Below, piece after piece: positions 30,632-34,215 of a stretch of 37,850 bases of DNA; positions within the stretch are counted from its first letter, which is position 1, and every line of letters begins with the position of its first letter. Where the stretch lies: assembly GCA_026705345.1 (NCBI GenBank), contig JAPPAV010000025.1, positions 1-37,850 on the forward strand, given 5' to 3'. The translations under genes and the position numbers were made by a program. The notes beneath the pieces were generated by a model. That model had not been told where the DNA came from and made no database searches. It was given only the letters and a program-made list of their open reading frames with translations. Origin of the DNA: Gammaproteobacteria bacterium (GTDB lineage Bacteria; Pseudomonadota; Gammaproteobacteria; Pseudomonadales; Azotimanducaceae).

Positions 30632-30697
30632 CGGGCGACCGCGCGCCCTTCGGGCGCGATAGGGTCGCCGGGCGACCACAAGGGTCGCCCCTACGGG
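30632..30697. repeat. composite palindromic element
   Basis: A left part with arms GGGCGACC ... GGGTCGCC encloses a GCGCGCCC/GGGCGCG hairpin, and a right minus-oriented CGACC copy ends CCCCTACGG. The right end supplies the TAG stop codon of the selenoprotein gene. Confidence 0.8.
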
Positions 30698-31212
30698 GTC
30701 GTCAGGATCTCGATCGCCTGTTCGCATGCCACGGCAGCACGTGCACTGACCTCCTCGGGCGTGCAACTGCCGAGGGGATGCTCGAGAATGACGAAGGGGT
30801 AGTCCGGCAGGCCCATCATCCTGGCGATGTTCTTCGCCGTGACCTCGAACGGTTCGGTGCAAAGAACCACCGCCCGTTTTCCGGACTGCTCGAAGGTGAT
30901 GCCGTCATGCAAACTGCACGTCGAGCAACTACCTCAGTCGCCCGCGGCGGTAATGAGGTAGTCACACTCCGGCGTGAGGTTGGTCAGTAGATCCGCGGGT
31001 GCGGGTGCCGAGGCGTTTCCCTTCGACGCGATCGGCAATACCTTGCCCCCGAAACGGGCCCGCAGCAGATCCGCCGTTTCCGTCAACAATCGATCGGCGT
31101 TGAGCTTGCCGTTCCAAAGCAGGCCGATAGTCCGGCCTTCGAGGCTTCCAAGCGCGGGCGCTCGCTTTGCCTCTCCCTCCTTCGAGGGGACGGTTGGATT
31201 GACGAGTTTCAT
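30691..31212 (-). CDS. UGSC-motif selenoprotein (Sec encoded by in-frame TGA)
   Basis: Two frames, 30934-31212 and 30691-30912, join without a gap if the TGA at 30934-30936 is read as selenocysteine, giving 173 residues with Sec93. Around it the protein reads LITAAGD-U-GSCSTCSLHDGITFE, the UGSC signature of a selenoprotein family first noticed in marine metagenomes; C96 and C99 make a possible redox set. The parts before (GKVLPIASKGNASAP) and after (TEPFEVTAKNIARMMGLPDY) look conserved and undamaged. A hairpin just after the TGA fits a bacterial SECIS. The ATG has GGAGGG three bases upstream. It is the second gene of an operon, 19 bases after the 356-residue protein. The function is unknown; a redox role is inferred. 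Confidence 0.88.
30902..30924 (-). promoter_or_regulatory. putative bacterial SECIS hairpin
   Basis: Counting from the base after the UGA, positions 10-18 pair with 24-32 (one A-A mismatch, two G-U pairs) around the five-base loop AGUUU at 19-23. Spacing and a G-U in the apical loop fit the bacterial SECIS pattern recognised by SelB. The pairing was done by eye. Confidence 0.5.
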
Positions 31213-31231
31213 ACTCCCTCCCTAGGACGGC

Positions 31232-32302
31232 TCAACAGTCGATGCAAACCCCAATGGCCTGGGTCTGCATGATGGATCCCCGACCACGGCTCCACGACGG
31301 GATGAAGGACGAGTGACCGCCCGCATCGCCACCACCCACGGTGACGAGGATGTCGTCCGGCCCAAAGCCGCGATGACAGTCTTCTCGCCCCTGCCTCAAG
31401 TAGCCACGGTCGAGCTTGCCGAGGCGTTCGATGGTCTGCCGGGGATGCTTCGCGTGTTCAAACAGGTATTCCCGGACCTCGGCCTTGGTCCATCCCGTTC
31501 GGGCGACGATGTCCGCGTGTTCGGGCGATAGCACGACGACGCTCTGCCCGGTGCTGATGCAGCCGTAGTTGGCCATGGCGCTCGCCATGGTGTCCAGGAT
31601 CGCCTCCGGGGTGTTTCCGCCATGGTTTTCCACGTTGCAGAACCCCGCGCCCGCGAACACGGTGACGGAACTAACACCCTCGGGATAGCCGAACTCTTCA
31701 CACAACGCCGGCCAGGGGTTGCGGTCCGCCCGCTCGGCGATACAAAAGCTGTACTTGCCAGGGTTTCCCTGCGTCGACTTGTCGGCAATCCCCGGCACGA
31801 TCCTGAATACGTTGAGCAGCGTCAGCCGAATAGACCGCCCAATGGTCGCGTTGGCTCGGTTCCCCGGTCCGAACAGGTTGACGCCCGCGTTCATGCCGAT
31901 CTCGTCGACGATCGGTCCGCTGACGATCAACAGGTGGCCGGATCCGCCGGTGCTGACCGTGCTGCCGTGGAAGTTGAAGGGTTCGCGGTCCATCGCCTCG
32001 AAAGCCGCGACGACGATCGGGAAGTACTCCGGGAGACAGCCCGCCATCACGGCGTTGACCGCCGCCGCCTGCAACGTCAATTCCAGGCGGGTTGCCGGGT
32101 GATGGGCGATGACGGTTGCGCCTGGACGGCCTTCCATCGCCAACATGGACTGAACGCGGCCCTCTTCGGGTGGCACAACCGGCAGGCCGTCGGTCCAGCC
32201 CTGCTCGTAGCAGTAGTCGATGGCATCCAACGGATCGTCGGCAATGTCGTGGAGGATCGTCTCGGGCACGGCGTCCCGTATGGCAATTGCAACACCACGC
32301 AT
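31232..32302 (-). CDS. unknown protein co-operonic with the UGSC selenoprotein
   Basis: A 356-residue protein with no signal peptide or membrane segment. Conserved-looking blocks are GWTDGLPVVPP, the HGSTVSTGGSGHLLIVSGP stretch, GNRANATIGRS, FAGAGFCNVENHGG and a glycine-rich VTVGGGDAGGHSSFIPSW near the end. It ends with VCIDC, a terminal Cys-x-x-Cys. I do not recognise a named domain, although I believe close homologues accompany UGSC proteins in other marine bacteria. A GGGGG site lies seven bases before the ATG. The stop is 19 bases from the selenoprotein start on the same strand, so a shared transcript is likely and a joint function (for example a substrate-binding or catalytic subunit with a redox partner) is inferred. 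Confidence 0.75.
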   Translation of the reverse strand: MRGVAIAIRDAVPETILHDIADDPLDAIDYCYEQGWTDGLPVVPPEEGRVQSMLAMEGRPGATVIAHHPATRLELTLQAAAVNAVMAGCLPEYFPIVVAAFEAMDREPFNFHGSTVSTGGSGHLLIVSGPIVDEIGMNAGVNLFGPGNRANATIGRSIRLTLLNVFRIVPGIADKSTQGNPGKYSFCIAERADRNPWPALCEEFGYPEGVSSVTVFAGAGFCNVENHGGNTPEAILDTMASAMANYGCISTGQSVVVLSPEHADIVARTGWTKAEVREYLFEHAKHPRQTIERLGKLDRGYLRQGREDCHRGFGPDDILVTVGGGDAGGHSSFIPSWSRGRGSIMQTQAIGVCIDC

Positions 32303-32380: not shown

Positions 32381-33124
32381 TTATCCCGGCTCCCCGCTGT
32401 CCTGTTGCGCCTCCAACAGGTCTACGACGTCGGAGACGACCTCCGAGAGCGAACCGGCCACCGCGGCCAACTGCGCCTTGAGGACGGTCTCGCGGAAGTT
32501 CAAGTCACCCGCGGATTGTTCGACATCGAAGGTTCTGGACGCGACGGCGGAGAGCGGCACGACGCCCGTGCGCGTATCGATCAGCACGGCCTCAACGCCG
32601 CAGAACGCGCGTGCGCGATTGTCTCGGAAAACCCGGTATTTCTGAAAACTCCGACAGAAACTGCGGTAGACGAACATCAGATCGGCCTGAAATCTTGCCG
32701 CCGCTTCGCGGAGGTGGGGTACCGAACGCCTCTCCGGGGTCAACACCGACGGAAGGAAAGCGGCGTCGTAGACGCGAGGCGACGCCTCGAGCACTTCGAC
32801 TACGTCTCTCTCAAGCTGTTCGGTAGCGACGGCCAACCCTTCGGACCAGCCCGACCACATCTGCCTGCCGGCAGGCATCAGGGCGATGCGACTAAGGGTC
32901 GGCGGTGCATAGCGGTAGTCTAGGATGCGCCTGATCGCATCGTCGGTGAGGACGCTGGCATCTCCCGGAAACAGGGAAACCGGCTCATCCCTGTCCAGCG
33001 ACGCGGCTCGCACGCCGTCGTAGTAGCTCTCCGGGCGCACGGTTGAGGCGACACTGCATCCTCCCAGAACAAGCGGTATCGCGAGGAACAACAGAAGTAC
33101 ACGAGGGCAGGAGAGGACGTTCAT
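32381..33124 (-). CDS. lipoprotein of unknown function
   Basis: About 247 residues. The N-terminus MNVLSCPRVLLLFLAIPLVL ends in the lipobox LGGC, so it is predicted to be lipid-anchored. The mature part has an LSRIALMPAGRQ strand, a paired-helix region (EQLERDVVEVLEASPRV) and ADLMFVYRSFCRSFQKYRVF, followed by AVLIDTRTGVVPLSAVASR, a layout like CsgG- or DUF799-type assembly lipoproteins, but I cannot assign it. The ATG at 33124 follows a GGGAA site; the longer frame to 33319 overlaps the Gfo/Idh/MocA gene. Confidence 0.75.
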   Translation of the reverse strand: MNVLSCPRVLLLFLAIPLVLGGCSVASTVRPESYYDGVRAASLDRDEPVSLFPGDASVLTDDAIRRILDYRYAPPTLSRIALMPAGRQMWSGWSEGLAVATEQLERDVVEVLEASPRVYDAAFLPSVLTPERRSVPHLREAAARFQADLMFVYRSFCRSFQKYRVFRDNRARAFCGVEAVLIDTRTGVVPLSAVASRTFDVEQSAGDLNFRETVLKAQLAAVAGSLSEVVSDVVDLLEAQQDSGEPG

Positions 33125-33195
33125 CAAACATTCCCGAAGCGAGTCCACCGTCCTGTAGCGCCCGGCCGAGGCGAAAGGTTCACGTTGGGGCGGTT

Positions 33196-34215
33196 TCAGT
33201 CCCAGACCTTCTCCCAGGTACCACTCGTCACCGACCGGTACATGGCCAGCGCGGTGCGAAATTCGCCGAGCGAGTAGGCGGGTGATGCTTCGGGCGCCTT
33301 GCCGTCGAGAACCGCGCAACTGAAGTCGTGCAGCTCCACGCCGTAGCTTGCAGCCTTGCCTTCGAATGCGCTCATTACGGCCAGGCCGCCGGGATGCTCG
33401 CCGTTGAAGAGCATCAGGCGACCGTCGCGACCACGTTCCATGACCAGTTCCCCGTCGGTACCGGTCACCCGGAAGTCCTCGACCGGGCCAACGGCACCCG
33501 TGCTGAGCAGGGCGTCGAAGGTTGCGATGACGCCACTCTTGAAGCGGAACAAAGCGTGCGCCGAGGACTCGCCCTCCATGTTCGGAATGTGTCGGTCGGT
33601 CGCTGCGATGACTTCGTCGATCTCGCCGAGAATCATCCGCAGTGGGCGAATCCAGTGGGCTCCGCCGTCGATGGAAATCCCGCCGCCGGACCGGGCTAAC
33701 TCGTAGCGCCAGGGTTTAGCGCCCGGCACGACAGGCGACGGGTCGTAGAAACAGGCTCGGGCCATGATGACCTCGCCGATGGCCCCGTCGTCGATCAACT
33801 CTCGAGCTCGTCGCACGTCGGTCCAGTATTGGGCTTGCTCCGCGATCATGAATACCGTGTCGGCTTGCTCCGCCGCCGCGAGGATCCGTTCGCAGCTTTC
33901 CAGGCTGTGCGCCATCGGCTTCTCGAGACAGACATGCTTGCCGGCGGCGAAAGACTGAAGCGCCGCCTCTTCGTGCAGGTCGTGGGGAAGCATGATGTCG
34001 ACCGCGTCGAAGTCGCCGTTGGCCAACGCGTCGGCCAGGGACGAGAACGCCGGGGCGCCGGTGCGTTCGGACATCGCCGCAACGCTCTGTGGAACCGTGT
34101 CCACCACGGCGGTGACGTCGATTCGAGGGGCGTGGTGCTGGATGCCGCGCCAATGCGCCCGGGCGATGTTGCCGCAGCCGACGAGTGCCATCGTCAGCCG
34201 ATTCTTGCCTGCCAC
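33196..34215 (-). CDS. Gfo/Idh/MocA family oxidoreductase
   Basis: A 339-residue NAD(P)-dependent sugar or inositol dehydrogenase-type enzyme. The Rossmann motif is ALVGCGNIARAH at 10-21, the conserved E98-K99-P100 follows VCLEKP, and the catalytic D182 and H186 are in ISIDGGAHW. Substrate is unknown. The start is a GTG one base after the stop of the enolase-superfamily gene, so the two are translationally coupled; an ATG at 34191 is an alternative. The pair suggests catabolism of a sugar acid. Confidence 0.9.
   Translation of the reverse strand: MAGKNRLTMALVGCGNIARAHWRGIQHHAPRIDVTAVVDTVPQSVAAMSERTGAPAFSSLADALANGDFDAVDIMLPHDLHEEAALQSFAAGKHVCLEKPMAHSLESCERILAAAEQADTVFMIAEQAQYWTDVRRARELIDDGAIGEVIMARACFYDPSPVVPGAKPWRYELARSGGGISIDGGAHWIRPLRMILGEIDEVIAATDRHIPNMEGESSAHALFRFKSGVIATFDALLSTGAVGPVEDFRVTGTDGELVMERGRDGRLMLFNGEHPGGLAVMSAFEGKAASYGVELHDFSCAVLDGKAPEASPAYSLGEFRTALAMYRSVTSGTWEKVWD

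Follow-up and report, generated by a model that had tools for sequence, protein, structure and literature searches.

A UGSC-family selenoprotein gene in a gammaproteobacterial genome, its linked partner gene and a probable relation to GrdB

The stretch of DNA analysed here (hereafter the window) comprises 37,850 nucleotides of contig JAPPAV010000025.1 in the gammaproteobacterial assembly GCA_026705345.1. On its minus strand, a gene at 31212..30691 almost certainly encodes a selenoprotein of the known UGSC family, to judge from its sequence, with an in-frame TGA specifying selenocysteine (Sec). Directly upstream lies a gene of another family, here called the partner, with which UGSC very probably works; the Sec-containing half of UGSC is also very probably homologous to the Sec-bearing end of GrdB, a subunit of glycine reductase. 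The original prediction, made from the window alone, had identified the selenoprotein, and this reading of the gene is supported; the linked partner and the relation to GrdB were absent from it. It had also described UGSC as known from marine metagenomes and of no established function, in agreement with the available text of PMC2398784 and PMC13188914. As far as the accessible literature goes, UGSC ranks with the major selenoprotein families in ocean metagenomes; the available parts give 255 Sec and 21 cysteine (Cys) sequences in PMC2398784 and, in PMC9402790, a share of 8.2% among selenoprotein genes. The linked partner, together with the probable kinship to an enzyme of studied mechanism, makes a concrete test of UGSC function feasible.

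The UGSC gene and its in-frame TGA

Under the standard code, the open reading frame (ORF) spans 30934..31212 and ends at the TGA after 92 residues. With TGA read as Sec, the frame runs from an ATG to a TAG over 173 codons, and codon 93 (30936-30934, minus strand) supplies the Sec of the motif GD-U-GSC-STC. The translated protein matches PF24696 (UGSC) over residues 3-171 (E = 8.5e-51; 172.9 bits against a curated cut-off of 25) and NF041046 just above its cut-off (127.8 bits against 125); it thus has both the full-length match above a curated cut-off and the Sec, which in some members is Cys, in the UGSC motif. A purine-rich segment, AGGGAGGGAG (31214..31223, minus strand), lies one base 5' of the ATG and is a probable ribosome-binding site. 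The coordinates first proposed, 30691-31212, are correct, the strand then left unstated is minus, and translation confirms the joined protein of 173 residues with position 93 at TGA 30934-30936. It had further been expected that a gene caller would split or truncate the gene, and the standard ORF list indeed truncates it.

That standard gene calling ends at the TGA is what would be seen if the codon were a real stop or a pseudogene lesion, the similarity beyond it being a remnant. Comparison with six relatives argues otherwise, as the codons 3' of the TGA are under purifying selection, with non-synonymous differences (pN) of 0.07-0.14 against synonymous differences (pS) of 0.52-0.75; in the same comparisons pN was higher 5' of the TGA (0.14-0.22). 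The same TGA is present at 76 of 76 related loci, a covarying hairpin follows it and the genome holds the Sec machinery, as set out below. We therefore regard a stop or lesion as having next to no probability. TGA nevertheless remains a stop in this organism, with no general readthrough, because the partner gene just upstream (32302..31232) itself ends in TGT-TGA. Right after the UGSC stop (30640-30700), inverted GGTCGCC/GGCGACC repeats resemble, by eye, a dispersed intergenic palindrome or a terminator.

A conserved hairpin downstream of the TGA

The sequence after the TGA can form the apical hairpin of a bacterial selenocysteine insertion sequence (SECIS), with stem CGUGC/GCAUG, loop AGUUU and an invariant GU (30906..30920, minus strand; positions 13-27, counting the first base after the TGA as 0). 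The hairpin after the TGA has a predicted minimum free energy of -17.5 kcal/mol (z = -1.94), and four of 200 shuffled sequences were equally or more stable. Of 79 sequences 73 are distinct, and across these the five apical pairs (13-27 to 17-23) are intact in 364 of 365 cells; 1000 shuffled controls averaged 94.0% and reached at most 95.9%, and kinship among the aligned sequences inflates such counts. Two-sided, compensatory changes occur in four of the five pairs, and G19, T20 and T22 are invariant. The loop codon specifies serine in 70 of the 73 sequences and is then always AGT, although serine has six codons; at position 11, by contrast, any of the four letters occurs as the wobble base. 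Compensatory changes and fixed wobble bases of this kind are hard to explain by selection on the protein alone. A search of Rfam around the TGA returned no match up to E = 1. The proposal of a plausible SECIS at the right distance is thus borne out by fold and covariation, and the conserved apical G after the UGA that marks the bacterial SECIS of UGSC genes is present.

Selenocysteine machinery and distribution

The genome from which the window comes (5.07 Mb in 151 contigs) contains selA, selB directly after it, tRNA-Sec in the same stretch (70.5 bits, also called by ARAGORN) and selD elsewhere; selA, selB, selC and selD, named at the outset as a check on the selenoprotein, are all there. The selD gene (L190, G000:C128:35471-36364) lies inside an open frame of 733 residues, a possible fusion with another enzyme. 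Three UGSC genes were found in this genome, each with a TGA at the motif.

Related loci were taken as the best 80 of 422 confirmed, found with a profile of the partner in named genomes. A UGSC gene is present at 76 of them, with Sec in all 76 and Cys in none, and a further 30 loci centred on UGSC all have Sec as well; the residue homologous to position 93 is therefore Sec and only rarely Cys. UGSC is rare in Pseudomonadota, occurring in five of 398 genomes drawn unpicked, the present one included; in G143 and G277, two of the remaining four, the Sec site holds Cys. Among 43 genomes selected from the partner loci (44 loci, two in one genome), there are 1 to 12 copies per genome, or 180 matches summed with fragments included; two of the matches listed that lack an internal stop (G404 and G430, both with selA) may be Cys forms.

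We searched for selA in 48 genomes, namely these 43, the present one and the four others of the draw. It scored above cut-off in 44; those without were G406 and G412, G143, where nothing matched, and G277, whose match (E = 7e-4) fell below the cut-off. To judge from these gene contents, the Sec form goes with Sec machinery, with two exceptions that are possibly assembly gaps and one clean case of Cys without selA. The UGSC gene of G277 (L101/L104), with Cys at the Sec site, has a TGA further on and its N-terminal part in another frame, and is perhaps decayed or affected by a sequencing error.

A partner gene linked to UGSC

The partner gene (31232..32302, minus strand) has the same direction as UGSC, with 19 bases between its stop and the UGSC ATG. 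It encodes 356 residues, including an invariant Cys89, a nearly invariant Cys187 and a C-terminal CIDC, and belongs to a family of about 330-370 residues that has no Pfam or NCBIfam model. Around the 80 partner genes, UGSC was found within the fetched stretch at 76 loci, on the same strand at 73 and downstream at 71. Conversely, a partner lies within 1.5 kb at 27 of 30 UGSC-centred loci, in genomes picked for holding a partner, and also at all five UGSC places in the four other genomes of the unpicked draw. The C13 paralogue in the present genome has UGSC and partner fused in one frame. In three partners (C18 in this genome, L095 and L097), a thioredoxin-like domain with CPTC is attached.

The CIDC at the partner's C-terminus (31235-31246) may be a flexible redox tail; Cys occurs at each CxxC site in 39 of 80 partners. 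Two candidate identities for the partner found no profile support: there is no match to UGSC itself, and none of the 80 partners matched PF09338, the GrdE-type family that bears the name of component B subunits (hhalign 0.1%). For the partner, Foldseek ranks first a fumarate hydratase of two subunits, by way of its alpha subunit (E = 6.6e-5; probability 0.97), ahead of cyclic amide hydrolases. Searches of PDB sequences with UGSC, partner and GrdB profiles found nothing better than E = 0.05.

Probable homology between UGSC and GrdB

Profile comparison by hhalign matched UGSC to the Sec-bearing end of GrdB with Sec aligned on Sec (95.7%; E = 9.7e-9). The match persisted when all Cys were masked (92.5%; E = 4.8e-7), and 60 column shuffles scored at most 18.2 against the real 61.1. 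The Pfam UGSC model reaches a GrdB-like protein at its Sec with E = 0.012, below its cut-off. In the other direction, none of 77 UGSC sequences had GRDB among its family hits up to E = 1, a search in which HMMER filters drop most weak matches. The GRDB model matched nothing in the present genome and had matches in 33 of the 43 others; GrdA is likewise missing here and present in four of the 48 genomes.

Other Sec proteins occur in the same genomes. A second family (L110-L134, e.g. L128:1453-2619), often of about 400 residues and with several copies in some genomes, has the motif UPxC; its match to PF07355 is confined to the end of that model, as far as the Sec. Full-length Sec-containing GrdB is present in five of the 43 genomes (L105-L109, L135-L143, L146-L154); several lie beside a gene resembling GrdE, two or three copies occur in some, and the Sec motif of one (L139) reads UGSC.

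A possible function and its alternatives

We propose that UGSC and its partner form a compact two-subunit, thiol-driven reductase resembling GrdB, with the partner holding the substrate; the case for this is evenly balanced. The link to a two-subunit enzyme with a substrate-binding partner is drawn because GrdA is missing here and because, to judge from sequence, the partner differs from GrdE. Reductive bond cleavage falls a little short of even odds. The partner would take the role that GrdE has in glycine reductase, though without detectable relation to it. Sec93, placed where a helix begins and with Cys96 after it, would attack the substrate through its selenol and break a carbon-heteroatom bond; Cys96 and the partner cysteines would resolve the adduct, and a thioredoxin-type donor would re-reduce the pair, with no need for GrdA. 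Support for a reductase reduced by thioredoxin comes from the fused thioredoxin-like domains and from how rarely Cys forms occur. In addition, a genome may hold several copies among differing catabolic genes, which suggests that the substrates differ too. In its fullest form, the proposal is of a compact, GrdA-independent and thioredoxin-driven member of the glycine reductase lineage, of which as many as twelve copies share a genome and every copy breaks a C-N, C-O, C-S or C-halogen bond of a different compound, in Gammaproteobacteria, Alphaproteobacteria, Chloroflexota, Acidimicrobiia and other phyla; this is speculative, and more probably wrong than right.

Several observations weigh against the proposal. 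The alignment with GrdB is limited to the Sec half of UGSC, only 38% (E = 3e-4) was reached with a broader profile of GrdB/PrdB-like proteins, and the second Cys of UxxCxxC is absent in 10 of 77 UGSC sequences. The profile comparison cited above found no relation between partner and GrdE. Four of the 80 partner loci (L084, L087, L089 and L096) have no UGSC in the fetched stretch, two of these stretches being short, and the thioredoxin-like domains are weak (C18 against AhpC-TSA, E = 1.7e-4, under the curated cut-off; L095, 0.0029; L097, 0.035). The metagenome-assembled genomes G406 and G412 carry a Sec-encoding UGSC with no selA found, which may reflect assembly gaps; the Cys-form gene of G277 looks broken, so that G143 alone is a clear example of Cys without selA. 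The flanks of the 80 loci and of three stretches of the present genome point to no substrate. Lastly, Sec chemistry fits peroxide or disulfide reduction as well.

This last point bears on a second reading, in which UGSC is a thiol-disulfide oxidoreductase or peroxidase of thioredoxin fold, serving redox defence, and the partner is its substrate or docking protein. UxxC does resemble a thioredoxin-type site, three partners carry fused thioredoxin-like domains, and the available text of PMC2398784 (2008), which holds a thioredoxin-like fold likely, and of the 2026 review PMC13188914, which calls the functions largely uncharacterised, places UGSC among thioredoxin-like proteins. The predicted structure (predicted local distance difference test 92.9, with Cys modelled for Sec) instead suggests a Rossmann-kind alpha/beta layer, and no thioredoxin appears among the 50 Foldseek and 50 VIA rows listed for it, which need not include every similar fold. 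Comparison with three thioredoxin domains gave 0.2% by hhalign, as against the significant match to GrdB. A thioredoxin fold for UGSC thus finds no support in these comparisons, and we consider this second reading unlikely. Less likely again is a non-reductive enzyme (hydratase, lyase or isomerase) with Sec as nucleophile or metal ligand and a partner resembling class I fumarase or cyclic amide hydrolases; this would suit the partner's Foldseek matches and its two conserved Cys, but kinship with class I fumarase has no profile support, and TM and Z scores are low.

Gene surroundings

We looked for a fixed third gene by clustering the flanking ORFs of the 80 loci and the three stretches of the present genome, and found weak clustering beyond the pair. 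The next clusters occur in 15, 11 and 11 of the 83 stretches and comprise, on reading their first residues, short-chain dehydrogenases, luciferase-like monooxygenases and acyl-CoA dehydrogenases. Pfam searches with 113 flanking ORFs (drawn from 140 listed of 288, skipping 24 near-duplicate loci) gave 132 varied families, including these three, the commonest in six members. With flanking families so varied and no fixed third gene, no substrate can be read from context. In the eight loci with more than 400 nucleotides between UGSC and partner, no single gene recurs throughout; a similar small ORF occurs in both L085 and L086, as judged by eye.

In the window, the neighbours include a mandelate-racemase-type enzyme, a Gfo/Idh oxidoreductase, TauD and PhyH oxygenases, a sulfatase and esterases. 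Next to the partner on its upstream side, an ORF (32381-33319, minus strand) has an internal start with a lipoprotein-like signal and no Pfam match, and is probably unrelated.

Comparison with known systems

GrdB (PF07355) of glycine, sarcosine and betaine reductase shares with UGSC a homologous Sec-bearing C-terminal part, with E and G at +15 and +18 and HPxG in most. It works with a second subunit, GrdE, as UGSC very probably does with its partner. UGSC differs in being much shorter (173 residues against GrdB frames of about 430-475 here), without the N-terminal part, and in having a partner that is not GrdE by sequence and no GrdA. The available text of PMC13188914 states that GrdB works with GrdA and has UxxCxxC, and that PrdB, the Sec subunit of D-proline reductase, shares homology with it. 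PrdB and the PrdB-like UPxC proteins of the same genomes resemble UGSC in having UxxC after a strand; the UPxC proteins differ in motif and architecture (38% by hhalign in the mixed profile). The available part of PMC10838667 ties GrdB-like proteins to C-F cleavage; the far operon of Synergistota described there, for fluoroacetate, is alike in that GrdB-type substrate-binding proteins are proposed for a non-amino-acid substrate, and differs, going by that description, in being anaerobic and in its other companion genes.

The closest comparison is with the UGSC family itself (PF24696, NF041046), to which the gene corresponds over its whole length, in its motif and in its Sec; the gene is a new member of this known family. 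Fusion to another domain, Unknown_1, is known in the family from a mention in PMC2398784, and this domain may be the same as the partner. The literature searched, mostly without subscription papers, yielded no report of the partner as a constant companion or of a relation between UGSC and GrdB. What the present analysis adds to the accounts of the family, in whose available text neither was found stated, is the linked partner and the probable homology with GrdB.
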